Shown here: positions 22,649 to 37,286 of the stretch, piece after piece | Numbering within the stretch: position 1 is the stretch's first letter | Layout of the letters: the number at the start of each line of letters is the position of its first letter | Origin: Neorhizobium populisoli | GTDB taxonomy: Bacteria > Pseudomonadota > Alphaproteobacteria > Rhizobiales > Rhizobiaceae | NCBI RefSeq assembly: GCF_019430945.1 | Contig: NZ_JAHYCB010000006.1 | Coordinates: 1 to 64,000, forward strand | Direction: 5' to 3' | Length of the DNA stretch: 64,000 bases | Position numbers and translations under genes: made by a program | Notes under the pieces: model-generated | Database searches by the model: none | What the model was told of the DNA's origin: nothing | The model's input: only the letters and a program-made list of their open reading frames with translations

Positions 22649-24643
22649 ATGTTGAAGAATATGAAAATCCGGACGAAGATCCTTTCGGTCGTCGTTCTTC
22701 TTGGCCTCGTTTCGGTCGCCGGTCTCATCTACATCGTCCACGAATTCAAGGGCGCCGACCAGCAATACGCCACGTTCATCGACCATGAGGCGCTGGCGGC
22801 CATGCAGGCCTCGCGCGCCAATGCTTCGGTCCTGTCCTCCGTGCTGCAGGCGAGCTTTTCCTTGAACCTGCCCGCCGGCTCGAAGGAATCGGAAGCAGCC
22901 GCCAAGGCCGCCTCGAAATTCGGCCAGGCTCGCGAACGCCTGCAGTCGGCAGCCGAACTGGTGCCGAGCCGCAAGGCCGCCTCCGACGAACTGATCGCCG
23001 AAGTAACCGCGCTCGAACAGACGACCCTGAAGGCGCTCGACGTGCGTAAATCCGGCGACGAGAAGGCTGCGGCGGAAGCGATCGCCAAGGTCAGCGCCGG
23101 CATTGCCGCGCTGACGCCGAAGATGATCGCCAACAACGACGCGCTGATGAAGCTGCTCGATGATGGCGGTGATGAGCTTTCCGATACCGTCAACAGCCGC
23201 ATCAACCTCTGCTTCGCCATTATCGGTCTCGCCACGCTGGCGCTGATCGGCTTCGGCATCTATGTCGCCCAGGCCGGCATCACCTCGCCGCTCAACATGC
23301 TGCGCGAGCGCATGAAGTCGCTCGCCGACGGTGCCACGGACGCGGAAATCCCCGGCCGCGAACGCCACGACGAAATCGGCTTGATGGCCGAGGCCGTGCA
23401 GATCTTCCGCGGCAACGAGATCGAGCGCGTGCATCTGGAAGCCCGCTCGGCTGCCGACCGCGACCTCAGCGACCGTGAACGCCACGACCGCGACACCCAG
23501 CGCAATTCCGAACAGCGTGAGCTGGAACAGGCGATCAACTCGCTCGGTGATGCGCTGCAGCGGCTTTCCGCCGGTGACCTTGCCTCGCGAATCGATACGA
23601 CGTTTGCCCCGAACCTCGACTCGCTGCGCCACGACTTCAACAATTCGGTCGGCAAGCTGAACGAAACGATGCTTGCCGTCGGCGCCAATACGGCGGCGAT
23701 CAATGCCGGTGCCAACGAAATCCGCTCGTCGGCCGATTCACTATCCAAGCGCACCGAACAGCAGGCAGCTTCCGTCGAAGAGACCGCGGCTGCGCTGGAA
23801 GAAATCACCACGACGGTGAAGGATGCCGCCAAGCGCGCTGCAGAAGTCAGCGCGCTCGTCACCCGCACCCGCAGCGGTGCGGAAAAGTCGAGCGAAGTCG
23901 TCCGCAAGGCGGTCGGCGCCATGCACGAGATCGAAAAGTCTTCGGGCGAGATCTCCAACATCATCGGCGTCATCGACGACATCGCCTTCCAGACCAACCT
24001 TCTCGCTTTGAACGCAGGTGTCGAGGCTGCCCGTGCCGGTGAGGCCGGCAAGGGCTTTGCGGTTGTCGCCCAGGAAGTCCGCGAACTTGCCCAACGCTCC
24101 GCCAATGCGGCGAAGGAGATTAAAGCGTTGATCACCGCATCGGGCGCGCATGTCGAAACCGGCGTCGCTCTCGTCGGCGAGACCGGCAAGGCGCTGGAGA
24201 CGATCCTGCACGAAGTGCTCGAGATCAACGGCCATGTCCACGCCATTGCCGACGCTTCGCGCGAACAGTCGATCGGGTTGCAGGAGATCAACACCTCGGT
24301 CAACGCCATGGACCAGGGCACCCAGCAGAACGCCGCGATGGTGGAAGAATCGACCGCCGCCAGCCACACGCTTGCGACCGAGGCGACCTCGCTTGCCAAC
24401 CTGCTCGGCCAGTTCAAGTTGACGGGTACGGGCGGGTATGTGTCGACCTCGGCACCTGCTACCCATCGCCCGGTCTCTCGCCCTGCGCCGGTTGCTGCAA
24501 AACCAGCCGTACGCGCCGTTACCGGCAACGAAGCTCGCCCGGCCGCATCGCCGGCCCGCGCGCTCAGCCAGAAACTCGCCGGCGCCTTTGGCGGCGGGGC
24601 TTCTGCTGCCGCCAGCGACAAGGCGGAGTGGACGGAATTCTGA
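22649..24643 (+). CDS. Methyl-accepting chemotaxis protein
   Basis: This 664-residue chemoreceptor has a first transmembrane helix at about 10-30 ([20 protein letters not shown]), a periplasmic helical sensor (about 35-190), and a second helix around 190-210 ([23 protein letters not shown]). HAMP follows (about 212-265), then a long cytoplasmic coiled coil. The conserved hairpin tip is [45 protein letters not shown]. The protein ends in EWTEF, which resembles the CheB/CheR-tethering pentapeptide (NWETF in E. coli). The ligand cannot be predicted. Confidence 0.95.
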
Positions 24644-24672
24644 GCTTTAGCCGCATACTCTACCGCTCGAGG

Positions 24673-24705
24673 AATGGCGCCCCGCAAAGGGCGCCATTTT
24701 GTTTT
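24673..24705 (+). terminator. Intrinsic terminator of the chemoreceptor gene
   Basis: A 10-bp perfect stem (AATGGCGCCC / GGGCGCCATT) with loop CGCAAA is followed by TTTTGTTTT. It lies 30 bp after the chemoreceptor stop. Confidence 0.85.
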
Positions 24706-24775
24706 CAGGCACGGTTCTGCGCAATCAGGAAACATCCCGCAATGCGACTGCGTGCAGCCAACGATGATGCGCGTA

Positions 24776-25696
24776 CTATGTCCGGTTGAGGAAGTCGCGG
24801 ATCAGTCCGGAAATCTCTTCCGGCTTATCCTCGAAGCAGTAGTGTCCTGCATCGGGCAAGATTTCGATCGGGGCCTCGGGAAAGAGTTCTGCAAAGAGTG
24901 GCAGGAAGTGTTCCGCGTGAAGTGTCCGGTCCGCCCCGCCCCATATCGCCAAGGCAGGCTTTCCACGGATTTCGCGAATGGCTGCGGCATCGGGCACCTC
25001 AAACCGATGTGTGCCGTTTGCAAATCCCTTCGCCCAGCCGATCGCTCCGAGGCAATCGATCGGCGTTGCAAACGGTGCACCATAGGCGTCGATGAAACTA
25101 TCGTTGATGATCGCATTGTTCTCGAAGCCGTTCAGTTTCAGCGTGCTCAGGATATTGTAGCCGAGCTGCTCGAGAACGGTCTCGAGAGTGCCCTCGCCTT
25201 CAGCTTTGAGAATCCACTGAAACCACGGCGAGATTGCCGTATTTGCCTTGGCGCGATCGAACATGCCCGCCTGGCCGAACGGCGTGGGTCCATTCGCCGG
25301 GATGACGCGGCGGATACGGTCAGGGTAACGGGCGGCGATCCCCATCCCCACCGGCCCGCCAAAATCGTGCATGACAAGCGTAATATCACGCAGATCGAGC
25401 TCCAGAATAAACCTCTCCAGATTGTCGATGTGATCATGGAGCCAATAGCTGCGGTTCGAAGGGGTCTCGCTTTTACCGAATCCCATGTGATCCGGAACGA
25501 TCACCCGATGCGTGGGGCGGAGCGTGGCAATCAGGTGGCGGAATAGATAGCCCCATGTCGGTTCGCCATGCAGGCAAAGAACAACCTCGCCGTCACGCGG
25601 CCCCTCATCGACATAGTGCATTTGAAATCCTGCAGCCGCGGTGAACTGCGGAGCAAAGGGGAAAGTCCCCGAGAAATTGGCATTGGCATGAATCAC
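24776..25696 (-). CDS. Haloalkane dehalogenase-like alpha/beta hydrolase
   Basis: This 306-residue protein resembles haloalkane dehalogenases. The oxyanion region is LCLHGEPTWGYLFRHLI, which is also seen in DhlA-type enzymes. The nucleophile elbow is LVMHDFGGPVGMGIA, with aspartate in place of the serine of esterases. The late acid may lie in AIWGGADRTL and the histidine in PDAGHYCFED. The residue after the nucleophile is Phe and not the halide-binding Trp, so dehalogenase activity is uncertain; other Asp-nucleophile hydrolases remain possible. It is divergent from an HxlR-type regulator, which probably controls it. Confidence 0.8.
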   Translation of the reverse strand: MIHANANFSGTFPFAPQFTAAAGFQMHYVDEGPRDGEVVLCLHGEPTWGYLFRHLIATLRPTHRVIVPDHMGFGKSETPSNRSYWLHDHIDNLERFILELDLRDITLVMHDFGGPVGMGIAARYPDRIRRVIPANGPTPFGQAGMFDRAKANTAISPWFQWILKAEGEGTLETVLEQLGYNILSTLKLNGFENNAIINDSFIDAYGAPFATPIDCLGAIGWAKGFANGTHRFEVPDAAAIREIRGKPALAIWGGADRTLHAEHFLPLFAELFPEAPIEILPDAGHYCFEDKPEEISGLIRDFLNRT

Positions 25697-25710
25697 AATC
25701 GTTCTCCAGA

Positions 25711-25768
25711 TGTGGTTTTAATTTGCAACCGCACGGTTGATAGCTCTTGTGGTTTTAATTTGCAACCG
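25711..25768. promoter_or_regulatory. Tandem direct repeat, operator-like, between the hydrolase and HxlR genes
   Basis: A 21-bp sequence occurs twice (25711-25731 and 25748-25768), 37 bp start to start. The core GGTTTTAATTTGCAACC is itself an imperfect palindrome (GGTT at one end, AACC at the other). The repeats fill the short region between the divergent genes, where an HxlR dimer would be expected to bind. On the reverse strand each copy also carries TTGCAA, which could act as a -35. Confidence 0.7.
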
Positions 25769-25845
25769 ATATATGATCGAAGGGCCGGTCGAGACGCTTA
25801 CGCACACTCCGCCGGATCGAGATGTCCGATGAAAGCGGGTTCGCC

Positions 25846-26295
25846 ATGGCCAAGAGAGTTAGTCACCAAAAGTCCCTTTGCGGTGTGGCCAGACCACTGG
25901 ACGCGATCGGCGACTGGTGGTCGCTGTTGATTATCCGCGATGCATTCGATGGATTGAGCCGCTTCGGAGAATTTCAGAAGAGCTTGGGCCTGGCGAAGAA
26001 CATCCTGTCAGCGCGACTTCGCAATCTGGTATCGCATGGGATCATGGAGACCATCCCGGCGTCCGACGGCGGCCCCTATCAGGAATACGTCCTCACCGCG
26101 AAGGGGCGCAGCCTCTTCCCGGTTCTCGTAGCACTTCGCCAATGGGGAGAGGAATTCTTCTTCGAACCCGACGAACCGCATGTGATGCTGGTGGATAAGC
26201 TCAATGGAATTCCGGTAAAACGCCTGCAGCTTCACGCCGAAGATGGCCGTGTTGTCGATTCAACCGATACCATAATCAGGTTTCCGGTGATCTAA
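25846..26295 (+). CDS. HxlR-family transcriptional regulator
   Basis: This protein has 149 residues from ATG 25846 (ATG 25822 would add eight). The winged helix-turn-helix follows the HxlR pattern: CGVARPLDAIGDWWSLLIIRDAFDGLSRFGEFQKSLGLAKNILSARLRNLVSHGIMETIP... YVLTAKGRSLFPVLVALRQWGEEFF. A single cysteine, CGVARPL near residue 12, lies where family members carry a redox-sensing Cys. It probably regulates the divergent hydrolase through the tandem repeats at 25711-25768. A C-terminal extension of about 35 residues follows the core. Confidence 0.88.
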   Translation: MAKRVSHQKSLCGVARPLDAIGDWWSLLIIRDAFDGLSRFGEFQKSLGLAKNILSARLRNLVSHGIMETIPASDGGPYQEYVLTAKGRSLFPVLVALRQWGEEFFFEPDEPHVMLVDKLNGIPVKRLQLHAEDGRVVDSTDTIIRFPVI

Positions 26296-26369
26296 AGCGA
26301 TCGATCGAAACGGAAGCGACATGATCTGACAGAAGCGACGTGTCGTTGATTTTGAGGTTTTGAAGAAGC

Positions 26370-26443
26370 TGGAGCGGGTGAAGGGAATCGAACCCTCGTA
26401 TTCAGCTTGGGAAGCTGCTGCTCTACCATTGAGCTACACCCGC
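26370..26443 (-). tRNA. tRNA-Gly (anticodon CCC)
   Basis: This is a 74-nt tRNA encoded on the reverse strand. The acceptor stem is GCGGGTG/CACCCGC with discriminator T, and CCA is encoded. The D-loop is TAGCTCAATGGTAGAGC, the anticodon loop TT-CCC-AA, and the T-arm GAGGGTTCGATTCCCTTC. Its length and sequence closely match the known bacterial tRNA-Gly(CCC). Any ORF across it is spurious. Confidence 0.97.
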
Positions 26444-26512
26444 GCGATGGCGCCAGACTTCCAACAGAAGCGGCCGGCTGTCAAGACTATCTCCTTGGCC
26501 GGCCATCTCTCG

Positions 26513-27604
26513 TCAGACGCGAAAATGCTTCGAGAGCTTCAGGCCCTGGGCCTGGTAGTTGGAGCCGACACCGGAGCCGTAGAGGCCTTCGGGGTGTTCC
26601 ATCATGTGCTCGTAGACCAAGCGTCCGACGATCTGGCCGTCTTCGAGGATGAAGGGGACTTCGTGGCTGCGAACTTCAAGCACGGCACGGCTGCCGCGGC
26701 CGCCGGCGGCTTCGTGGCCGAAGCCGGGGTCGAAGAAGCCGGCGTAGTGAACGCGGAATTCGCCGACCAGCGGGTCGAAGGGGGTCATCTCGGCTGCGTA
26801 AAGCGGCGGCACGTGGACGGCCTCGCGGGAGACGAGGATGTAGAACTCGTCCGGATCAAGGATCAGTTCGTTGCGGCCGCGACTGTAAAGCGGCTCCCAG
26901 AAATCGAAGAGATCGTGCTGCGCCTTCTTGTCGACATCGACGACCGCCGTGTGGTGTTTGCCGCGATAACCGATCAGGCCTTCCTTGTCGCCCGACAAGT
27001 CGATGGACAGCGCGATGCCGCCACCGGAAACATTCGGGTTCGAGGCCGCAACCAGCGTCTCGTCATTGTGGAGTTGCTGCAGTTCCGGCTCGCCGAGCAG
27101 CGCATTGCCGATGCGGAAGCGGATCTGCGACAGGCGCGAGCCGCGGCGCACGACGATCGGAAAGGTACGCGGCGAGATTTCGAGATAGAGCGGTCCGGAA
27201 TAACCGGCCGGGATCTTGTCGAATTCCTGGGCGTAATCGGTGATGACGCGCGTGAAGATATCGAGGCGTCCGGTCGAGCTTTTCGGATTGGCGGAGGCCG
27301 ACATGCCGGTCGGCAGGTCAAGCTTTTCCATCAGCGGCACGATATAGACGCAGCCGGTCTCCAGCACCGCGCCTTCCGACAGGTCGATGACGTGCAGCTT
27401 CAGCCGGTCGAGCTTGTCGGAAACGAGATGGTTCGGCCCCGGCATGAAGCTTGCGCGCACGCGAAAAGCCTTGGCACTGAGCCTCAGATCCAAGCTTGCC
27501 GGCTGTATCTGGTCGCGGTCCAGCTCCTTCTCGGAGGAGAGCCTGCCACTGTCGAAAAGCGCCGCGATTGCGCGGTCCGCCAGAATTCCTGTTTCGCGAG
27601 CCAT
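26513..27604 (-). CDS. 2'-deoxycytidine 5'-triphosphate deaminase (tandem DCD form)
   Basis: This protein has 363 residues from ATG 27604 (an ATG one codon earlier and a longer frame exist). It contains two related beta-rich halves. The first has ASANPKSSTGRLDIFTRVITD, ending with IPAGYSGPLYLEISPR and SRLSQIRF. The second has YAGFFDPGFGHEA...AVLEVRSHEVPFILEDGQIVGRLVYE. The length is roughly twice that of E. coli Dcd (~193 residues), typical of the DCD family of rhizobia. It should deaminate dCTP to dUTP for thymidylate synthesis. It sits between tRNA-Gly and the metZ riboswitch, transcribed away from metZ. Confidence 0.85.
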   Translation of the reverse strand: MARETGILADRAIAALFDSGRLSSEKELDRDQIQPASLDLRLSAKAFRVRASFMPGPNHLVSDKLDRLKLHVIDLSEGAVLETGCVYIVPLMEKLDLPTGMSASANPKSSTGRLDIFTRVITDYAQEFDKIPAGYSGPLYLEISPRTFPIVVRRGSRLSQIRFRIGNALLGEPELQQLHNDETLVAASNPNVSGGGIALSIDLSGDKEGLIGYRGKHHTAVVDVDKKAQHDLFDFWEPLYSRGRNELILDPDEFYILVSREAVHVPPLYAAEMTPFDPLVGEFRVHYAGFFDPGFGHEAAGGRGSRAVLEVRSHEVPFILEDGQIVGRLVYEHMMEHPEGLYGSGVGSNYQAQGLKLSKHFRV

Positions 27605-27685
27605 CATGTCTCTTTCATTGTTGAAGGGACAAAACCAAAAGCGGGGCATTGACGCAAGTCGCGCTCAAGCGTATGCCAATCTTAT

Positions 27686-27746
27686 CCCGTGGTGATTTGG
27701 CCGGTCGGCTTGCAGCCACGTTAAATAAGTGGCTAAAAAGACCGGG
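27686..27746 (+). promoter_or_regulatory. SAM-II riboswitch aptamer upstream of metZ
   Basis: The leader contains CGTGGTGATTTGG at 27688, a loop block CCGGTCGGCTTGCAG, CCACG (27716-27720, closing helix P1 with CGTGG 27688-27692), then TTAAATAAGTGGCTAAAAAG and GACCGG (27740-27745). This closely follows the alphaproteobacterial SAM-II consensus, in which an H-type pseudoknot binds S-adenosylmethionine. CCGGTC (27701-27706) can pair with GACCGG (27740-27745) to extend the pseudoknot. The downstream gene metZ is a methionine-synthesis gene, as expected. SAM should reduce metZ expression. Confidence 0.93.
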
Positions 27747-27781
27747 TGCGAAACCGGTCTGCTATTGCGACCGGTTTTTTT
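27739..27781 (+). terminator. Intrinsic terminator/antiterminator module of the SAM-II riboswitch
   Basis: AACCGGTC (27752-27759) and GACCGGTT (27769-27776) form an 8-bp stem with a 9-nt loop, followed by a T-run to 27781. An alternative 7-bp hairpin, AGACCGG (27739-27745) with CCGGTCT (27754-27760), would destroy that stem. Because GACCGG is also the 3' pseudoknot strand of the aptamer, ligand binding should free the terminator to form. Confidence 0.75.
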
Positions 27782-27801
27782 GTTCTGAATGGGGAACACG
27801 C

Positions 27802-28986
27802 ATGACTAAGAATTGGCGCCCGGCAACCCAGCTCGTACATGGCGGCACGTTGCGCTCGCAATATGGCGAAATGTCCGAAGCGATCTACCTGACGCAAGGG
27901 TTCGTCTACGAGAATTCCGAAGCTGCCGAAGCGCGCTTCAAGGGCGAGACGGAAGGTTTCATCTACGCCCGCTATGGCAGCCCCACCAATGACATGTTCG
28001 AAAAGCGCATGTGCATGCTGGAAGGCGCCGAAGACGCCCGCGCCACGGCATCGGGCATGGCCGCCGTTACCGCCGCCATCCTCTGCCAGCTGAAGGCCGG
28101 CGACCATATCGTTGCGGCCCGCGCCCTGTTCGGCTCCTGCCGCTGGGTGGTCGAGACGCTCGCTCCGAAATACGGCATCGACTGCACACTGATCGACGGC
28201 CGCGACCTTGCCAATTGGGAAAAGGCGATCACGCCGAAGACCAAGGTGTTCTTCCTGGAAAGCCCGACCAACCCGACGCTGGAAGTGGTCGATATTGCCG
28301 GCGTCGCCAAGCTCGCCAACCAGATCGGCGCCAAGGTCGTAGTCGATAACGTCTTCGCCACCCCGCTCTTCCAGAAGCCGCTGGAACTCGGCGCGCATAT
28401 CGTCGTCTATTCCGCCACCAAGCATATCGACGGCCAAGGCCGCTGCCTCGGCGGCGTGGTGCTGTCCGACAAGGCCTGGATCGACGAGAACCTGCACGAC
28501 TATTTCCGCCATACCGGCCCCGCCATGTCGCCGTTCAACGCCTGGACGCTCCTGAAGGGCGTCGAGACGCTGCCGCTGCGCGTCAAACAGCAGACGGCCA
28601 ATGCCGCCAAGGTCGCCGACTTCCTGGCCGACCAGAAGCAGGTCGCCAAGGTGATCTATCCGGGCCGCAAGGACCATCCGCAGGCGGATATCATCGCCCG
28701 GCAGATGACGGGCGGCTCGACGCTGATCTGCTTTGAGCTGAAGGGCGGCAAGGAAGCGGCCTTCAAGCTGCAGAATGCGCTCGATATCGTCACCATCTCC
28801 AACAACCTTGGCGACACGCGCAGCCTGATCACCCATCCGGCCACGACGACGCACAAGAACCTGTCGGACGAGGCCCGCGCGGAACTCGGCATCACGCCCG
28901 GCACCGTGCGTCTTTCGGCCGGTATCGAGGACACGGACGATCTCCTGGAAGATTTCGCCAAGGCGCTGGCCGCCGTCGGCGTATAA
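27802..28986 (+). CDS. metZ: O-succinylhomoserine sulfhydrylase
   Basis: This 394-residue PLP enzyme makes homocysteine directly from O-succinylhomoserine and sulfide. Cys/Met-metabolism PLP family motifs are FIYARYGSPTNDMFEKRMCMLEGAEDARATASGMAA, FFLESPTNPTLEVVDI, VVDNVFATP, the PLP lysine in YSATKHIDGQGR, and SLGG-like TISNNLGDTRSLITHPATTTH. The start at 27802 is selected because the riboswitch and terminator lie immediately before it; the upstream frame to 27649 runs through the aptamer. Regulation by SAM-II is the main feature. Confidence 0.94.
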   Translation: MTKNWRPATQLVHGGTLRSQYGEMSEAIYLTQGFVYENSEAAEARFKGETEGFIYARYGSPTNDMFEKRMCMLEGAEDARATASGMAAVTAAILCQLKAGDHIVAARALFGSCRWVVETLAPKYGIDCTLIDGRDLANWEKAITPKTKVFFLESPTNPTLEVVDIAGVAKLANQIGAKVVVDNVFATPLFQKPLELGAHIVVYSATKHIDGQGRCLGGVVLSDKAWIDENLHDYFRHTGPAMSPFNAWTLLKGVETLPLRVKQQTANAAKVADFLADQKQVAKVIYPGRKDHPQADIIARQMTGGSTLICFELKGGKEAAFKLQNALDIVTISNNLGDTRSLITHPATTTHKNLSDEARAELGITPGTVRLSAGIEDTDDLLEDFAKALAAVGV

Positions 28987-29159
28987 TTTCGGCGGTCGGC
29001 CGTATGACTGAGAAATGATGAATCCTTGCGGAAGGATTTACCATTTCAGTTATCCCTAACTTCAAGAAGTGCTCACGCCTGGTTGTTCAAGTCGCGAGAT
29101 TTCTTGACGTTTCCGCTCCCACGTACAATATCGGATACCTGAGTATCGTGAGGGGCAGT

Positions 29160-29552
29160 ATGTACCGCGCCCGGACAAGAGACATCGAAGTGGCTGTCGA
29201 GCCCTTTTATCTGGAGGAGCAATCCAGTCCGGAAGACAGCCGCTATGTCTGGGGTTATCGTATCGTCATCGAAAACCATTCGCTGCTGACGGTGAAGCTC
29301 GTGCATCGCTACTGGCACATTACCGATCAGAATGGTCTCGTCGACGAAGTCGACGGCCCCGGTGTCGTCGGCGATCAGCCTCGGCTCGAGCCGGGTGACA
29401 GCTACGAATATTCATCCGGCTGCCCGCTGGACACGCCTTCCGGCATGATGTTCGGCCATTACGACATGCAGACCGATGAAGGTGAGACCTTCAAGGTAAC
29501 GATCCCGGCCTTTTCGCTGGACAGCCCCGGCCTGATGCGCGTCCTCAACTGA
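29160..29552 (+). CDS. apaG: ApaG protein (Co2+/Mg2+ efflux-associated)
   Basis: This 130-residue protein starts at ATG 29160 after GAGGGG. It shows the full ApaG signature: [91 protein letters not shown]. It has an Ig-like beta-sandwich fold and is a cytosolic protein of incompletely understood role. In rhizobia it often lies near met genes, as here behind metZ (173 bp gap). Confidence 0.95.
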
Positions 29553-29696
29553 CGCTCCTCTCATCAACTCCTCCCTTGGTCATCTGATCATTTCTGAAAA
29601 TCTGAGCTGCGTTTCGTTCGACGCAAGCTTCCAGCACGCTTGCGTCGATATTCCCGATGGGGTTGAGCAGGCGTTGCAGTTGATCAAGGGATTTGA

Positions 29697-31079
29697 ATGA
29701 CAACGAGTGATAAGGGTGAGGCCGCGGGTCTTGTCGGGCGGTCTCTGAACGAAGCGATGCATTTCCATGCTATGGGAGATCTGGATCGCGCCGAAAAACA
29801 ATATGTTCAGGTTCTGTCGAAAGAGTACCGCACCACGGACATCCTGCCGCTTCTGGCAAGCGTCGTGGCCAAGCGGGGCGATGCGGAAGCCGCCATCTAC
29901 TACTGGGACAAGCTGCTCGCCATCGATCCCCGGCATCTGACCGGCTATCTCGAAAAGGCAAATCTGCTGCGCGGCATGGGCAAGACGGCGGAAGCCATCA
30001 CCTGCTACGAGATCGCGCGCACGATCGCGCCGGAAAACCCGCTGATCCGCAACAATCTCGCCGTCACGATGGCGGAATTCGGCCGCAAGGACGACGCGCT
30101 GCAGGAATTCAACCACGTGCTGCGGCTGCAGCCGGGCAATATCAACGCGTATCACCAGATGCGCCGGCTTTCGACCTCGATCGTGCCCTTCTGGCATGTG
30201 GCGATGATGAATGACGTCTCACGCAACGACGCCTTCGAAGCCGCCATCCTGAAGGCGATCGAAATGCGCGGCAAGGATGCCCAGATTCTCGATATCGGCT
30301 CCGGCAGCGGCCTTCTGTCGATGATGGCGGCCCGTGCCGGCGCCACCAATGTCGTCACCTGCGAAAGCGTGCCGGTGATCGCCCGCATGGCGGAAGCCAT
30401 CGTCGCAGACAATGGTTACTCCGAACAGGTGAAGGTGGTGTCGAAACCTTCGACGGGTCTTTCCGTCGGCAAGGAGCTCTCTGCCAAGGCGGAAATCCTG
30501 GTCTCCGAGATCCTGTCGAGCGACCTTCTGGCCGAGCATGTGCTCAGCACGTTCGAGGATGCGCAGAGCCGGCTTTTGACCGACGATGCGATCGTCATCC
30601 CCCAGCGTGCCGCCGCCATCGGCTGCCTCGTCTCCAGCCAGACGCTGACCGACTACAGCCATGTGAAAACTGTTTCCGGCTTCAACGTTCAACGCTTCAA
30701 CGGCCTCGCCCCGATGGCTCTGCCGATCCACGGCACGATGAGCGACTGGACGCGCCTCTCCGACGACTTCGAGATCACTTCGGTCGATCTCACCCGCAAG
30801 ACCTTCGAGGCCGAACTGCGACAGGTGGCGATCCCGGTCACGACCAGCGGCACGGTCGTCGGCGTTGTGCAGTGGATGCATGTCGACCTGCTCGACGACA
30901 TCACCTTCGCCAACCACCCGGACGATTATCACGACGGCGGCTGGCTGCAGATCCTGCACCCCTTCCCCGAGCCGATTGCGGTAGAAGCTGGCTCAAGCCT
31001 TAATCTGCTGGTCGGCCACGACAAGAAGAGCCTGATCGTGCTTCCGGGACCGCAAAAGCGGGCGGCGTCAAAGAACTGA
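29697..31079 (+). CDS. TPR-PRMT protein: arginine N-methyltransferase-like (PRMT9-like)
   Basis: This is a 460-residue protein. The N-terminus (about 15-150) is a TPR array (LNEAMHFHAMGDLDRAEKQYVQVLSKEY; AAIYYWDKLLAIDPRHLTGYLEKANLLRGMGKTAEAI). From about 165 it carries a methyltransferase with protein-arginine methyltransferase hallmarks: WHVAMMNDVSRNDAFEAAI, motif I ILDIGSGSGLLS (197-208), post-I E223 in TCESVP, a double-E loop SEILSSDLLAE (E271, E280), and a later GGWLQILHPFPEP segment resembling the PRMT THW/HWxQ region. This order (TPR then PRMT) mirrors eukaryotic PRMT9. Arginine methylation in the cytosol is the inference; no partner is adjacent. Confidence 0.75.
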   Translation: MTTSDKGEAAGLVGRSLNEAMHFHAMGDLDRAEKQYVQVLSKEYRTTDILPLLASVVAKRGDAEAAIYYWDKLLAIDPRHLTGYLEKANLLRGMGKTAEAITCYEIARTIAPENPLIRNNLAVTMAEFGRKDDALQEFNHVLRLQPGNINAYHQMRRLSTSIVPFWHVAMMNDVSRNDAFEAAILKAIEMRGKDAQILDIGSGSGLLSMMAARAGATNVVTCESVPVIARMAEAIVADNGYSEQVKVVSKPSTGLSVGKELSAKAEILVSEILSSDLLAEHVLSTFEDAQSRLLTDDAIVIPQRAAAIGCLVSSQTLTDYSHVKTVSGFNVQRFNGLAPMALPIHGTMSDWTRLSDDFEITSVDLTRKTFEAELRQVAIPVTTSGTVVGVVQWMHVDLLDDITFANHPDDYHDGGWLQILHPFPEPIAVEAGSSLNLLVGHDKKSLIVLPGPQKRAASKN

Positions 31080-31091
31080 TGACAATGAGAG

Positions 31092-31113
31092 CGGCGGGAA
31101 AATCCCGCCGTTT
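31092..31113 (+). terminator. Intrinsic terminator after the TPR-PRMT gene
   Basis: CGGCGGGA (31092-31099) and TCCCGCCG (31103-31110) form an 8-bp stem with loop AAA, followed by TTT. It lies 12 bp after the stop and overlaps the end of the converging ankyrin gene. Confidence 0.7.
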
Positions 31114-31814
31114 CATTCCTGCGCCGGTAGATTCTCCAAGAGGGCCATCGCATCCCGGCGCCACTCAACTTTCGCATGATCGGCCGCCGTTTGTTCCTTC
31201 TTATCTCTAAGGCCCGGGTCCGCGCCATGCTTCAACAGGCTTATTACAGTAGCTGTGGAGCCATATCCTGCAGCCATCATCAGCGCCGTCTCACTTTTCT
31301 GGTTCTGAAGGTTAGGGTCGGCGCCATGTTTCAGCAGGTTTTCAACGATCGCCATATTCGCGAATCGAACCGCAACCATGAGCGCCGTCTCGCCGGTCTG
31401 AGTCTGACGATTGGGATCCACTCCTTTTGCCAGAAGGAATTCCACGTTGGTTTCGGAACCTTCACCGACAGCCAGCATCAGCAAAGTGTAACCTGATCCG
31501 GTTTCCTGATGCACATCTGCGCCGTGACTGAAAAGAATTTGTCCGAGCGCAGGATCAGCGAACGGTTTTTGGCATCCGGTATTGTCGAAATACTGAAAAA
31601 GCGAAAGTCCATCAAACGACCAGCCCGGCATTCTTGCATTGATGTCCGCCCCGTGAGCAAGAAGGCGATAGACACCAATCGGATTGCCGGAGCAAACTCC
31701 GGCAGCGACAGATTCTGGAAGAATCCAAGGGCGTGTAAAATTCAGGAAGCCCGCCACCCAAAGACCGACGATAACGATAATCAATCGAATAGAAAATCTA
31801 TAGAGCCGCTTCAT
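31113..31814 (-). CDS. Membrane-anchored ankyrin-repeat protein
   Basis: This protein has 233 residues from ATG 31814 (preceded by GGGGGCGA; 31829 is an alternative start). One N-terminal hydrophobic helix (FSIRLIIVIVGLWVAGFL) anchors or exports it. Ankyrin repeats follow: GVYRLLAHGADINARMPG, GQILFSHGADVHQETGSGYTLLMLAVGEG, NVEFLLAKGVDPNRQTQTGETALMVAVRFANMAIVENLLKHGADPNLQNQ, and VISLLKHGADPGLRDKKEQTAADHA. It is probably a periplasmic or membrane protein-binding scaffold. Partners are unknown. Confidence 0.85.
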   Translation of the reverse strand: MKRLYRFSIRLIIVIVGLWVAGFLNFTRPWILPESVAAGVCSGNPIGVYRLLAHGADINARMPGWSFDGLSLFQYFDNTGCQKPFADPALGQILFSHGADVHQETGSGYTLLMLAVGEGSETNVEFLLAKGVDPNRQTQTGETALMVAVRFANMAIVENLLKHGADPNLQNQKSETALMMAAGYGSTATVISLLKHGADPGLRDKKEQTAADHAKVEWRRDAMALLENLPAQE

Positions 31815-31840
31815 TCGCCCCCACGACATGACAGCCACAG

Positions 31841-31867
31841 AAAAGGCGGGAGAAAACCCCGCCTTTT
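31841..31867 (-). terminator. Intrinsic terminator of hslO
   Basis: On the reverse strand AAAAGGCGGG and CCCGCCTTTT form the stem, with CTTTT beyond it. It sits just after the hslO stop (31873). Confidence 0.75.
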
Positions 31868-31872
31868 GAAAT

Positions 31873-32862
31873 TCAAGCCGCAGCGAACTCCGCCACTTCA
31901 TACCGATAGGTGGTCGAGCAGAACTCGCAGGTGACGGCGATCTCGCCGTTTTCCTGGCTGGCTTCGATCTCTTCCGCCGAAAAGCCGGTGAGCACGCCCT
32001 TGATCTTGTCACGCGAGCAGCTGCAGCGGTCGTGGACCTTCTGCGGTTCGTAGACGCGCACGCCGCGCTCGTGGAACAGGCGGTAGAGCAGCCGTTCGAT
32101 CGGCACCTGCGGATCGGTCAGCTCATCCGTATCGATCGTTTCGACCAGCGTGCGGGCTTCCGACCATGCATCGTCTTCCGCCATCTCGAACTCGCGCTCA
32201 TCGCCGTCACCGCCATGCAGATCCGGCTGGCGCATGCGCTCCGGCGCCTGTGGCAGGAACTGGGAGATAAGACCGCCGGCGCGCCAGTTATGACGCGGCT
32301 TGCCGTCAGTACCGCGATCGAACAGTTCGGCAACGCCGAGGCGCACCTTGGTCGGGATCTGTTCCGACTGGCGGAAATAGACGCCGGCAATTTCTTCCAG
32401 CGACGAACCGTCGAGGGGCACGATGCCCTGATAGGGCTGCATTCCACGACCCTGGTCGATGGTGAAGGCAAGGATACCGTTGCCCAACAGGTCGGCCGGC
32501 GAAGTCTGGCCTTCCTTGACGGCAGCAGCCAGCGCTTCCTCGTCGTAACGGGCATAGGCGCGCAGAGAGTCCGGCGACGAAAAATCAGCCACCAGCAGAT
32601 CGACCGGACCGTCGCCCTTGGTCTGTACCGTGAACTTGCCGTCGAACTTCAGCGAGGTGCCGAGCAGCGCCGTCAACACGATCGCCTCGGCGAGCAGGCG
32701 CGCGACTGGCGCCGGATAATCGTGGCGAGCAAGGATCGTGTTCAGGAGCGGTCCGAGCTGCACCGCGCGGCCGCGCACATCGAGCCCTTCCACCTGGAAA
32801 GGCACGACACGGTCGTCGCCGGCAAAATCGAGCTGGTCCAGTTCAACATTCGCTTCGGCCAT
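31873..32862 (-). CDS. hslO: Hsp33 redox-regulated chaperone
   Basis: This protein has 329 residues from ATG 32862; ATG 32865 and an extended frame to 32976 also exist, and AAGGAG supports the 32862/32865 pair. The C-terminal zinc/redox centre has four cysteines in the family pattern C-x-C (DRCSCSRDK) and C-x-x-C (TCEFCSTTY). The N-terminal substrate-binding domain includes LLGTSLKFDGKFTVQTKGDGPVDLLVADF. It is a cytosolic holdase activated by oxidative unfolding. It lies downstream of argD-argF, a common rhizobial order; the gap to argF is 177 bp. Confidence 0.95.
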   Translation of the reverse strand: MAEANVELDQLDFAGDDRVVPFQVEGLDVRGRAVQLGPLLNTILARHDYPAPVARLLAEAIVLTALLGTSLKFDGKFTVQTKGDGPVDLLVADFSSPDSLRAYARYDEEALAAAVKEGQTSPADLLGNGILAFTIDQGRGMQPYQGIVPLDGSSLEEIAGVYFRQSEQIPTKVRLGVAELFDRGTDGKPRHNWRAGGLISQFLPQAPERMRQPDLHGGDGDEREFEMAEDDAWSEARTLVETIDTDELTDPQVPIERLLYRLFHERGVRVYEPQKVHDRCSCSRDKIKGVLTGFSAEEIEASQENGEIAVTCEFCSTTYRYEVAEFAAA

Positions 32863-33039
32863 CATTTCACTCCTTCGCGTCGACATTTCTACACGAGCGC
32901 GCGCCCGAGCGGAACCGCGGGCGGGAGGAAAAGATATCGACGATGTGTGTTGAGGCGTCGTGACACTGCGGAACACAACGCATTCGGGTTTGACCGGTAG
33001 ATGGTCCCGGCCATCCGCAAAATCAAGCCGCCGGGTTCC

Positions 33040-33957
33040 TCAGATGGCGCCGAAGCACCAGGCGAGCACGGACTTCTGGGCGTGAAGCCGGTTTTCCGCC
33101 TCATCGAAGACGACCGATTGCGGGCCGTCGATGACGGCGTCGGTAACTTCCTCGCCGCGATGGGCCGGCAGGCAGTGCATGAAGAGCGCGTCCTTGTCCG
33201 CCTTCTTCATCAGCGCCTCGTTGACCTGATAAGGCTGGAAGATGTTGTGGCCGCGGGCCTTGTGTTCCTGGTTCATCGACACCCAGGTATCCGTGACGAT
33301 CATGTCGACGCCGGCAACCGCGCGATCCGCATCGTGGCAGAGCATAACCTCGCCGCCGTTGTTGCGCGCCCAGTTGAGGAATTTATCGTGCGGCTCGGAG
33401 CCCATCGGCACAGCCATATTCATCTTGTAGCCGAAACGGGCAGCACCCTCGACGAAGGAATGCAGCACATTGTTGCCATCGCCGGTCCAGGCGAAGGTCT
33501 TGCCCTTTACCGGGCCGCGATGCTCTTCGAAGGTCATGATATCGGCCATGATCTGGCAGGGATGCGTATCGTCCGTCAGCGCGTTGATGACCGGCACGGT
33601 GGCGTGCTCGGCAAGCTCCAGCATGCGGGCATGGTCTGTGGTGCGGATCATGATCGCATCCACGTAACGCGACAGGACCTTGGCAGTATCGCCGATCGTC
33701 TCGGCCCGACCGAGCTGCATTTCAGTGCCTGACAGGAACAACGTCTCGCCGCCGAGCTGGCGCATGCCGACATCGAAGGAAACGCGGGTGCGTGTCGAGG
33801 GCTTTTCGAAGATCATCGCCAGTACCTTGCCGGCGAGCGGCTTTTCGGCGGTGCCGGCTTTAGTCGCCTGCTTGCGGACCTTGGCGTCATCCAGAATGGT
33901 GCGCAGGTCCGACGAAGAGACGGCGGAAATATCGAGAAAATGCTTCGGAGATGCCAT
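33040..33957 (-). CDS. argF: Ornithine carbamoyltransferase
   Basis: This 305-residue enzyme of arginine synthesis joins carbamoyl phosphate to ornithine to give citrulline. Motifs are the carbamoyl-phosphate loop [15 protein letters not shown], the HPCQIMADI segment, the ornithine-binding [10 protein letters not shown], and the catalytic Cys loop [13 protein letters not shown]. It is downstream of argD by 53 bp, probably in one operon. Confidence 0.96.
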
Positions 33958-34010
33958 TAGAATGTTCCCTATGAAGAGGGAACCATCAATGGCGCCCCCT
34001 TCCCTGCCCC

Positions 34011-35207
34011 TCAGGCCGATTTCTTCATTTCGACGGCGGCGAGTTTTTCAGCCGCCTTTTCGAGACGGGCGAGGCCTTCGCGGGCCTCTTCGACCGTGAC
34101 CGTCAGCGGCGGGATCAGGCGCACGACATTGTCGCCGGCCGGAATGCCCAGCATCTTTTCGTCGCGCATCGCCAGCATCAGTTCAGCCGCCGGGACCTTG
34201 GCCTTGACGCCGAGCAGCAGGCCTTCGCCGCGAACATCTTCGATAACCTCAGGGAAACGGTCCTTGAGGCTCGCAAGCCCCTGACGGAAGATCAGCGAGA
34301 CGTCGCGGATATTTTCCATGAAGCCGTCGGCCAGCATGACATCGAGCACGGCATTGCCGACGGCCATGCCGAGCGGATTGCCGCCATAGGTCGTGCCGTG
34401 CGTGCCGGCGGTCATGCCCGATGCGGCCTCTGCCGTTGCAAGGCAGGCGCCGAGCGGATAACCACCGCCGATGCCCTTGGCGAGCGCCATGATATCCGGC
34501 GTCACGCCAGCATATTCATGCGCGAAGAGCTTGCCCGTGCGCCCCATGCCGGTCTGGACTTCATCGAAGATCAGCAGCAGGCCGTTATCGTCGCAAAGCT
34601 GGCGCAACGTCTGCATGAATTCCTTCGGCACCGGTCGGATACCGCCTTCACCCTGGATCGGCTCGATCAGGATTGCGGCGGTCTTTTCGGTGATCGCCGC
34701 CTTCAGTGCGTCGAGGTCACCGAACGGCACCTGATCGAAACCTTCGACCTTGGGGCCGAAGCCCTCCAGATATTTCGCCTGGCCGCCGGCGGCGATGGTC
34801 GCCAACGTACGGCCATGGAAGGCGCCTTCGAAGGTGATGATATGGAAGCGTTCCGGGTGACCCTTCACATATTGATAGCGGCGTGCGGTCTTGATCGAGC
34901 ACTCCAGCGCCTCTGCGCCGGAATTGGTGAAAAACACCTTATCCGCGAAAGAGTTGTCGGCGAGACGCCGCGACAGGCTCTCCTGGCCAGGCACTTCATA
35001 AAGGTTCGACACATGCCAGACCTTCTCCGCCTGGCTCTTCAGCGCCTCGACGAGATGCGGATGGGCATGACCGAGAGAATTCACGGCAACGCCCGAGCCG
35101 AAGTCGAGATATCGCTCGCCCTTTTCCGTCACAAGCCATACGCCCTCGCCGCGCTCAAAGCGCAGCGGAGCCCGGGCAAACGTGTCGAAAAGCGCGGCTT
35201 CAGCCAT
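34011..35207 (-). CDS. argD: Acetylornithine aminotransferase
   Basis: This 398-residue class-III PLP aminotransferase has the expected marks: [74 protein letters not shown], the PLP lysine in [15 protein letters not shown], and TTYGGNPL. It converts N-acetylglutamate semialdehyde to N-acetylornithine. It leads the argD-argF unit. The 409-bp region between it and divergent gcrA contains a minus-strand terminator. Confidence 0.95.
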
Positions 35208-35257
35208 GGCGACATCACTCCTCTAGGCAGTACCTGAAAAGCCGGAACAACCGGCCG

Positions 35258-35288
35258 GAAAAATCAAAAATGCCGCCCTCAGGGCGGC
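35258..35288 (-). terminator. Minus-strand intrinsic terminator upstream of argD
   Basis: GCCGCCC and GGGCGGC (35272-35278 / 35282-35288) form a strong stem. On the reverse strand it is followed by ATTTTTGATTTTT. It lies 65 bp upstream of argD in the argD direction, where no annotated gene ends. It would act on transcripts that start between here and gcrA, either as an argD leader attenuator or as the end of a small RNA. Confidence 0.7.
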
Positions 35289-35363
35289 GCGGGCACTATC
35301 GGGGCTTGAGGCCGGAATGTCAACAAAGCTCGGCATTTTCGCCATCTTTCGGCGCTAAAACGA

Positions 35364-35494
35364 CGATCCACAGCCTCTGTGACAAAAATGACTCGCCCGG
35401 ACAGCAAGTTGGGGAAAACCGCGAAATCGATTCACCATGATTCGCCCGACTCTTGCCACGGAGTCAGCCTCACACTAGGTTAATACTCAATTAC
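35364..35494 (+). promoter_or_regulatory. gcrA promoter region: GANTC cluster, CtrA-like box, DnaA-like box
   Basis: Five GANTC (CcrM) sites lie within 76 bp: 35390-35394, 35429-35433, 35439-35443, 35448-35452 and 35461-35465. Just downstream, TTAA-N7-TTAC (35480-35494) is one mismatch from the CtrA full site. CGATCCACA (35364-35372) resembles a weak DnaA box. In Caulobacter, gcrA is controlled by DnaA and CtrA, and GcrA acts at methylated GANTC sites, so such elements fit cell-cycle control. Confidence 0.6.
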
Positions 35495-35616
35495 TAGAAC
35501 GCATGCGGCGGAACTAGTCACCCACATCCCAGATATTGTGTTCGCCTGAAGATGATCTTCGCGGCGAGGGTGAAAGGATTCTGCTTGCCGGCGACGTTCA
35601 AAGGCGGAGAACGGGC

Positions 35617-36159
35617 ATGAACTGGACAGACGAGCGTGTCGAGAAACTGAAACGACTGTGGTCGGAGGGCCTCAGCGCCAGCCAGATCGCAGCACAACTC
35701 GGAGGCGTAAGCCGTAATGCCGTGATCGGCAAGGTGCACCGCCTTAGCCTGCCCGGCCGAGCGAAGGCCGGCGGCACTGTGGCGACGAGCCGTACCAACA
35801 ACACGGCTGCGAAGCGCACCACGTCCGCGCCACGCGCCCCGAACTATGCGTCCCGTGTCACCACCCGCACCGTCGCCCGCGCTGTCGGCGCGACTGTTGT
35901 GAAGGAAGAGATCGAGGTCGAAACCTATCATGAGATGGAATATCGTCCCGCCTCTAACGTGGTCGTGCCGATTTCCCGCCGCCTCGGCCTGACGGAACTC
36001 ACCGAGCGCACCTGCAAGTGGCCGGTCGGCGACCCGCTACAGGAAGACTTCCATTTCTGCGGCTGCGAGTCCCCGGACAGCTCGCCGTATTGCGGTTACC
36101 ACGCCAAGCTGGCCTATCAGCCGGTGCATGAGCGCCGCAGGGCAGCCGTCCGAGCCTGA
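35617..36159 (+). CDS. gcrA: Cell-cycle transcriptional regulator GcrA
   Basis: This protein has 180 residues from ATG 35617 (GGCGGAG upstream); an upstream frame to 35536 is not conserved-looking. The N-terminal DNA-binding segment is MNWTDERVEKLKRLWSEGLSASQIAAQLGGVSRNAVIGKVHRLSLPGRAK. A variable middle is followed by the C-terminal sigma-70-interacting part, ERTCKWPVGDPLQEDFHFCGCESPDSSPYCGYHAKLAYQP. GcrA works with RNA polymerase holoenzyme at CcrM-methylated promoters to drive cell-cycle genes in alphaproteobacteria. Confidence 0.95.
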   Translation: MNWTDERVEKLKRLWSEGLSASQIAAQLGGVSRNAVIGKVHRLSLPGRAKAGGTVATSRTNNTAAKRTTSAPRAPNYASRVTTRTVARAVGATVVKEEIEVETYHEMEYRPASNVVVPISRRLGLTELTERTCKWPVGDPLQEDFHFCGCESPDSSPYCGYHAKLAYQPVHERRRAAVRA

Positions 36160-36196
36160 TCAAGGCTTCCGGCGGCACTCACGAGGACGAGATGGA

Positions 36197-36221
36197 AAGC
36201 GGGCTTACGGCCCGCTTTTTT
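36197..36221 (+). terminator. Intrinsic terminator of gcrA
   Basis: AGCGGGC and GCCCGCT pair around a short loop (TTACG) and are followed by TTTTTT. It lies about 40 bp after the gcrA stop. Confidence 0.85.
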
Positions 36222-36245
36222 GTTGGGTTGCGATCGGCTCCAACC

Positions 36246-36282
36246 GCATCGGGCGATGCATCTCCGGTGGATCGCCCGATGC
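36246..36282. repeat. Perfect 12-bp inverted repeat downstream of gcrA
   Basis: GCATCGGGCGAT (36246-36257) and ATCGCCCGATGC (36271-36282) are exact reverse complements with a 13-nt loop. There is no T-run, so it is not a classic terminator. It leads directly into the palindromic repeat at 36291. Confidence 0.75.
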
Positions 36283-36290
36283 GGAAGGCT

Positions 36291-36433
36291 TTCCCTTCTC
36301 CCCAGCCGGGAGAAGGTGGCCTGAAGGGTCGGATGAGGGGGCCGAGTTCTCCACGTTCAGTAAGGATATTGGGGGTTGTTTCGCGCGGCCCCTTCATCCG
36401 CCTGTCGGCACCTTCCCCCGCTGGGGAGAAGGG
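36291..36433. repeat. Rhizobial palindromic intergenic repeat (copy B)
   Basis: The left arm begins TTCCCTTCTCCCCAGCCGGG and runs to GGTCGGATGAGGGGGCC. The right arm begins GGCCCCTTCATCCG and ends CCCGCTGGGGAGAAGGGA. It is the same element type as 6293-6443. Together with the two preceding hairpins it fills most of the 467-bp gap between gcrA and the PACE gene; the rest (36434-36626) shows no recognisable feature. Confidence 0.8.
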
Positions 36434-36626
36434 AGGCCAACCTCGTCCGTCGCGCAATAACTCGCTGTCCGACAATATGCCTGCCCGCCCGCCGCGCATA
36501 GCAGCCCTGCCCCGCCAGCCCTTGCCCCAGCGCACCCAATCACCTATTTCAAACCAGCGAGGACGACCTCCCCCGTATCGGGCATGAACTCCGGGACGAC
36601 CCGGAACCTACCCACAGGGGTTCACC

Positions 36627-37055
36627 ATGCGCTCGACACGAGACCGCATTCGCCACGCCATCAGCTTCGAGCTTATCGCGCTTCTCATCGTAACGCCGGT
36701 CGGCGCGCTGCTGTTCAGCAAGCCGATCTCGGATATCGGCGTCATCGCCATCGGCGGCGCGACGATCGCGACGGGCTGGAACTATCTCTACAATCTGGGT
36801 TTCGACCACCTGATGCGACGGCAGACGGGCAGCACCCGAAAATCGCCGGCCATTCGCGTGGCGCATGCGATCCTGTTCGAACTTGGATTGCTGGTGGTGC
36901 TGTTGCCGTTCGTGGCCTGGTATCTGCAGATCAGCTTGTGGGAGGCGCTCGTCATGGACGTGGCATTTGCGCTCTTCTACGTCGTCTACGCCTTCGTTTT
37001 CAACTGGGGCTACGACCGGGTCTTCCCGTTGCCGGAATGGCAGATGGAGAGCTAA
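36627..37055 (+). CDS. PACE-family efflux transporter (two BTP domains)
   Basis: This 142-residue protein has four transmembrane helices arranged as two tandem repeats. The first repeat starts RDRIRHAISFELIALLIVTPVGALLF and ends TGWNYLYNLGFDHL; the second starts RVAHAILFELGLLVVLLPFVAWYL and ends FVFNWGYDRVFP. This is the bacterial transmembrane pair pattern of PACE (AceI-like) proteins, which export biocides such as chlorhexidine or, natively, short polyamines. The start at 36627 lacks a strong ribosome-binding site. Confidence 0.88.
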   Translation: MRSTRDRIRHAISFELIALLIVTPVGALLFSKPISDIGVIAIGGATIATGWNYLYNLGFDHLMRRQTGSTRKSPAIRVAHAILFELGLLVVLLPFVAWYLQISLWEALVMDVAFALFYVVYAFVFNWGYDRVFPLPEWQMES

Positions 37056-37286
37056 ACAACCACGCTTGCAAGCAAGATTCGAACACGTCAGGGTTGCCAA
37101 CTAGATAATAAGCTGCGCTTCATCAGCTTGAGTTATTTTCCCTAATCGTTTTTTGCGACTGATGGTGATATCGCGTCGAGTATCTCTCGGTGCCTCTACC
37201 AAGACAAGCGCTTACCGAAGTTTCAAATATCTTGCGACTGAAGGTACATACAATCCTGTTAACGCTCATTTTACCCGGTATGGCCA

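Follow-up and report, generated by a model that had tools for sequence, protein, structure and literature searches.

Protein arginine methylation has mostly been studied as a eukaryotic trait. Among the protein arginine N-methyltransferases (PRMTs), PRMT9 carries N-terminal tetratricopeptide repeats (TPRs) ahead of two methyltransferase modules. Two modules are also reported for mouse PRMT7 (PMC8399567). In bacteria, a guanidino nitrogen of arginine is methylated by SznE/StzE, an enzyme described as acting on free arginine within a gene cluster (PMC11705231). Among the papers listed from the open-access literature, which leaves aside most subscription papers and preprints, none on a bacterial TPR-PRMT or a bacterial PRMT9 homologue was found. 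Here, a gene is described from a 64,000-nucleotide stretch of the genome of Neorhizobium populisoli (contig NZ_JAHYCB010000006.1, positions 1 to 64,000), the whole of which is called the window. Its product, hereafter the window protein, has a TPR array ahead of a single complete PRMT module, which comprises motif I, double-E loop, beta-barrel, and W416 of the THW loop. As judged from sequence and predicted structure, it would be a bacterial PRMT of the PRMT7/PRMT9 branch with a PRMT9-like placing of the TPRs; the probability of this reading is put at roughly 0.7, a joint figure for the enzyme class and a protein substrate.

Domain layout and conserved motifs

The open reading frame (ORF) is intact and lies exactly where the initial annotation had placed it. 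Conservation was counted in an alignment of 39 rows, the window protein included, and the following features were assigned:

29697..31079, plus strand: TPR-PRMT gene, 460 amino acids, a single intact ATG..TGA ORF
29712..30182, plus strand: TPR region, residues 6-162, nine helices (Pfam TPR families; helices of the model)
30183..30596, plus strand: predicted S-adenosylmethionine (SAM)-binding Rossmann-type domain, residues 163-300 (model; PDB matches)
30192..30227, plus strand: entry motif WHxxMMNDxxRN, residues 166-177 (H167, D173, R176, and N177 the same in 39/39 rows)
30285..30314, plus strand: motif I, ILDIGSGSGL, residues 197-206 (G201 and G203 the same in 39/39)
30504..30536, plus strand: double-E loop SEILSSDLLAE, residues 270-280, with E271 (39/39) and E280 (31/39)
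30597..31046, plus strand: predicted C-terminal PRMT beta-barrel, residues 301-450, with possible arm helices at 315-321 and 332-337 (model; PDB matches; PRMT_C)
30936..30950, plus strand: THW-loop equivalent GGWLQ, residues 414-418 (W416 in 39/39; His at 415 in 26/39)

Invariant throughout the alignment, beyond what chance would give, are H167, D173, R176, N177, G201, G203, E223, E271, P302, and W416. The entry helix WHVAMMNDVSRNDAFE comprises residues 166-181 and includes M170, which we take to be the equivalent of M48 of PRMT1; a corresponding methionine is also present in PRMT7 and PRMT9. The SAM-site features are G201 and G203 together with the acidic post-I residue E223. The double-E loops of some relatives, e.g., TEIFDAGLLGE, resemble the TETVDAGLFGE of PRMT9. 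The entry helix, motif I, the double-E loop, and the GGWLQ segment had each been proposed in the initial annotation, and all four were recovered at the residues listed. In seven members of the family (L087, L088, L089, L090, L093, L100, and L105), proline stands for the second glutamate (SEL[IL]N[VI]G[ML]LAP) and the other motifs are retained; these proteins may have a changed substrate.

The TPR array ahead of the methyltransferase half, likewise claimed from the outset, was confirmed by several Pfam TPR families scoring above their cut-offs between residues 27 and 156, and as many as 32 of the 39 aligned proteins match TPR families. According to Pfam, the model, and the fold match, the repeats stand directly before the PRMT module, as in PRMT9. 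The spacing between the TPRs and the catalytic part is 22 residues in 36 of the 39 rows and aligns without gaps with PRMT9, which is compatible with one ancestral TPR-PRMT fusion. A second methyltransferase module is not present, the ORF stopping at residue 460 after one module. The suggested search with PRMT profiles gave a divided result: PRMT_C (PF22528) matches 30 of the 39 members at E ≤ 0.01, and the window protein itself stays below the cut-off (19.9 versus 27 bits).

Predicted fold and kinship with PRMT7 and PRMT9

The AlphaFold model of the 460-amino-acid protein (predicted local distance difference test score, 93.4) shows TPR helices at residues 6-162, alternating helices and strands at 174-300, and a mainly beta part from 301 on to 450, which forms a C-terminal beta-barrel; PDB matches cover residues 158-456. 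The top fold match in the PDB is Bos taurus PRMT9 over nearly the full length, followed by PRMT7. Thus, the comparison with PRMT7 and PRMT9 that had been recommended as a check of the PRMT assignment turned out in its favor, the barrel and the double-E loop both being present. In a PDB sequence search with the whole protein, an engineered TPR protein ranks first and the best natural match is PRMT9 entry 8rbk (E, 1.2e-39), whose best stretch, residues 90-294, begins in the TPRs and reaches into the methyltransferase domain; PRMT7 and human PRMT9 come next among the rows other than TPR-only ones. After removal of the TPRs, 61 PDB sequences match at E ≤ 1e-3, and all 60 of the 61 that are listed are PRMTs, which bears out the PRMT-like identity of this half; the top sequence score among the matches listed is that of PRMT7. 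With a profile built from 18 bacterial relatives, scores of 305 bits for mouse PRMT7, 278-283 for PRMT9, 218 for Trypanosoma brucei PRMT7, 202 for Caenorhabditis elegans PRMT7, 151-157 for PRMT6, and less than 149 for the other listed PRMTs were obtained, by which the family is PRMT7/9-like rather than type I-like.

Two trees, in which the eukaryotic rows are fragments and the label "bacTPR" also covers some short proteins whose TPRs are few or absent, gave the same division. The 53-row tree was calculated without L041, L045, and L046 (which take the same places as L087, L096, and L091), L097, L101, L111, and L114; from the 57-row tree, the C-terminal modules of PRMT7 and PRMT9 and L034 were additionally omitted because of their long branches. 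In the latter, the bacterial family groups with eukaryotic PRMT7/PRMT9 (51 rows; support, 100/99), and the other side holds three chains of type I PRMTs along with three bacterial PRMT-like rows that are single-domain. The branching order within the 51-row group is poorly resolved, with several long branches, and does not single out a sister to PRMT9. In approximately unbiased (AU) tests, a clade of all seven eukaryotic chains was rejected (p = 0.0013), a clade of eukaryotic PRMT7 plus PRMT9 was not rejected (p = 0.216), and a clade of the bacterial family was just not rejected (p = 0.058). By the rejection and the tree, the PRMT7/9 lineage lies, in this small sample, closer to the bacterial family than to the type I PRMTs.

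The window protein sits in a TPR-bearing clade of nine rows (100/100). In the 57-row tree it is closer to Bradyrhizobium copies than to copies on Rhizobium plasmids, which points to horizontal transfer. It may tentatively be proposed, as a scenario held with less than even confidence, that the TPR-PRMT fusion is no eukaryotic invention but an old and mobile bacterial system of protein arginine methylation, that eukaryotic PRMT7/PRMT9 descend from this bacterial family by a route distinct from that of the type I enzymes, and that the duplication of the module came later.

Proposed mechanism and rival explanations

With residue roles assigned by position in known PRMTs, SAM would be held in the Rossmann pocket by motif I, E223, and R176. 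E271 and E280 would clamp the guanidinium group of arginine, W416 of the GGW loop would line the pocket, and one methyl group would be passed to a guanidino nitrogen. By kinship, mono- or symmetric dimethylarginine would be the likeliest product. Because the protein has a single PRMT module, a homodimer is expected, which would take the place of the fused module pair in PRMT9. Recruitment of a protein partner or substrate would fall to the TPR superhelix; the very presence of a TPR domain argues for protein partners. The reading as a PRMT-type TPR arginine methyltransferase, put forward in the initial annotation, is supported by motifs, predicted fold, and kinship, catalysis itself being a prediction from sequence and model.

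Several observations weigh against this reading. Position 280 is Glu in 31 rows, Pro in seven, and Gln in one; 26 of the 39 rows keep the THW-loop His, for which the window protein has Gly and so reads GGW, the exact THW being found in six rows. There is one methyltransferase module where PRMT9 has two. The TPRs on their own are not specific for PRMT9: the TPR part with the linker scores 24.1 bits against PRMT9 (E, 3.5e-4; 57th of 60 listed), and OGT scores higher, with 81.9 bits summed over repeats and 22.1 for the best single stretch. The linker has little in common with that of 8rbk, 2 of 13 residues being identical; for the TPRs the count is 16 of 62. In the tree, six rows beside the clade of the window protein are shorter proteins (about 340-410 amino acids in open frames), and TPR-less plasmid relatives, encoded in what look like natural-product operons, branch within the bacterial family on the side of the window protein (92/89). 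Of the proposed likeness to PRMT9, the position of the TPRs ahead of the PRMT module and the best fold match stand; the number of modules and the GGW loop depart from it. Concerning the loop, 13 rows lack the THW His and 13 have Asp at position 276, with an overlap of 12; the union of 14 rows is exactly one clade (100/98) of the 53-row tree, so that loss of the His and Asp276 constitute a trait of one lineage and no repeated co-change.

The chief rival explanation, less probable but to be taken seriously, is methylation of free L-arginine or of a small guanidino compound in the manner of SznE/StzE of streptozotocin biosynthesis, where the TPRs would merely assemble a complex. Bacterial arginine-guanidino methyltransferases acting on free arginine are described in two reports (PMC11705231, PMC12637814). 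The TPR-less relatives on plasmids of Pantoea dispersa and Methylobacterium indicum adjoin genes for an "iron-containing redox enzyme", a small Rieske protein, and an ATP-grasp enzyme, and they are sister to the 27-row group that holds the window protein. These two relatives, however, form a clade of their own with L003 (99/98), apart from the nine-row TPR clade, and the gene in the window has, as read by eye from the translations, no such pathway neighbors. An inactive, degenerate PRMT working as a TPR scaffold is considered improbable. It could be suspected from the exchange of the THW His for Gly in the clade of the window protein and from the location of the gene on an insert that is not found in 35 genomes of the same genus, but both glutamates, R176, E223, and W416 are retained in the six aligned members of this clade (the window protein, three Bradyrhizobium proteins, one of Sphingobium, and that of genome G688), and the THW loop reads TCW in PRMT9 itself and MQW in T. 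brucei PRMT7.

Least probable is the reading as a PrmA-like enzyme, or as another methyltransferase not directed at arginine, that would share the Rossmann fold only. Pfam PrmA does match the window protein with 34.5 bits (cut-off, 22), and all 39 family members at E ≤ 0.01, but in the window protein this match is confined to residues 185-277, and the PRMT barrel and double-E loop are present. None of the 25 listed NCBIfam matches (43 found) attains its curated cut-off, which may explain the uninformative names of the relatives. The NCBIfam models for L11 methyltransferases score 18.9-26 bits against cut-offs of at least 183; with the full-length PrmA model TIGR00406, the window protein reaches 25.2 bits against 183.15. 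On coverage, barrel, and NCBIfam scores, PrmA and other small methyltransferase families were rejected. A best match to PrmA in a protein without the PRMT barrel, which the initial annotation had named as an outcome speaking against a PRMT, was not encountered. Its remark that such proteins are annotated as "TPR protein" or "L11 methyltransferase" proved apt, these being the names borne by relatives wherever annotation was seen; likeness of the PrmA type is the probable source.

As a side observation, the plasmid clusters with a TPR-less PRMT-like gene (L140 4265-9483 of P. dispersa pAHKW2b.3 and L149 6932-10989 of M. indicum pVL1_1) encode an ATP-grasp enzyme that resembles DdaF below the cut-off, and both have ada within a few kilobases; an AlkA-type gene is found in Methylobacterium. 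They are candidates for the biosynthesis of an N-methylarginine-derived, possibly DNA-alkylating natural product.

Distribution, insertion site, and comparison with known enzymes

The N. populisoli genome has one copy of the TPR-PRMT gene. In the 35 genomes of the same genus, no match to the methyltransferase half was obtained at E ≤ 1e-5, TPR-only matches occurring in nine. Wider searches were confined to Pseudomonadota or narrower groups, except for one contig scan for close relatives (4 loci), and the counts are lower bounds, four to six best candidates having been scored per genome. Among 297 genomes of the family, the own one included, at least two others (G124 and G290) match this half at E ≤ 1e-12 and at least two are TPR-only; among 398 of the phylum, at least 16, including the own one, match at E ≤ 1e-14, with at least one TPR-only. 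Of 385 genomes of the class, at least 55, again including the own one, match a profile built on this half at E ≤ 1e-15 and at least 48 at E ≤ 1e-50; the seven in between may hold other PRMT-like or multidomain proteins. The family is scattered through the alphaproteobacteria. The closest relatives are from Bradyrhizobium (62-65% identity), Sphingobium (55%), and genome G688 (56%); three Rhizobium plasmids carry proteins with about 60% identity in the methyltransferase half. The plasmid search yielded eight records at E ≤ 1e-10, all from Pseudomonadota. No match was found in the phage collection at E ≤ 1e-5, and of 25 pattern matches in viral contigs none was confirmed. In Bradyrhizobium sp. 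OK095 (L054 7359-8762), the PRMT gene overlaps a second TPR-like gene with another methyltransferase-like domain, as read by eye from the translation.

The gene is flanked by apaG, an ankyrin ORF, and hslO; the names apaG, hslO, metZ, argF, and argD were read by eye from ORF translations, independently of databases. Homology of the flanks to genomes of the same genus ends near 29550-29558 and returns at about 31871-31904. In 18 of 29 other genomes of the genus, the distance from apaG to the hslO behind it is at most about 120 bases; in three it is 0.45-1.4 kb, and in eight hslO was not seen within 1.5 kb of apaG. The apaG-hslO stretches of these 29 genomes contain no PRMT gene, and the methyltransferase half occurs nowhere in them. 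By these break points and the variation of the junction, the TPR-PRMT gene and the ankyrin ORF form an insert at a variable junction:

29556..31870, no strand assigned: inserted segment between apaG and hslO, with the TPR-PRMT gene and the ankyrin ORF (flank homology to same-genus genomes)

The ankyrin-repeat ORF extends on the minus strand from 31113 to about 31829, its start being estimated by eye. A PADLOC scan for anti-phage defence, covering these two proteins, matched residues 111-241 of its 255-amino-acid stretch to PDC-M72A (E, 2.3e-25), perhaps only via the ankyrin repeats; for the window protein, the one match was local and weak (mad2, 26.5 bits, residues 179-248). A comparison of 27 loci with 381 script-called ORFs revealed no neighbor conserved throughout the family, so that the enzyme looks free-standing; the test is crude, since the gene-caller called the PRMT gene in 20 loci and chose an antisense ORF over it in seven, and shared neighbors may be missed. 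The two most widespread neighbor clusters comprise five loci each, a glutathione S-transferase and short-chain dehydrogenases/reductases by the annotation of L136. On the Rhizobium plasmids L136, L137, and L138, the same two genes follow the TPR-PRMT gene; the annotation of one plasmid names them haloacid dehalogenase type II and CopD family. Inspection by eye of the translations at 22649-37108 revealed no ORF of an SznF-type N-oxygenase, a profile search of the neighbors not being part of this reading.

The occurrence of a PRMT7/9-type family in about one-eighth of the sampled alphaproteobacterial genomes (48/385) would open bacterial protein arginine methylation to direct tests; a natural one-module TPR-PRMT would help to explore the role of the TPRs in PRMT9, and the family is relevant to the origin of PRMT7 and PRMT9.

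With PRMT9 (human and bovine; 6pdm and 8rbk) the window protein shares the N-terminal TPRs, a PRMT module with a double-E loop, and a gapless alignment from the TPRs to the catalytic part, albeit at about 24% identity and with GGW in place of TCW. The chains of PRMT7 (mouse, C. elegans, and T. brucei; 4c4a, 3wst, and 4m38) give no TPR match, whereas the window protein has TPRs; the T. brucei chain, with 334-343 residues, is about one module long, like the single module described here, and differs at the THW loop, where alignments show MQW instead of GGW. SznE/StzE, compared by description rather than by sequence, is likewise bacterial and methylates a guanidino nitrogen, as predicted here, but its substrate is free arginine and its gene lies in a cluster. 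With PrmA the SAM-binding core is shared, the match being partial and far below the NCBIfam cut-offs.
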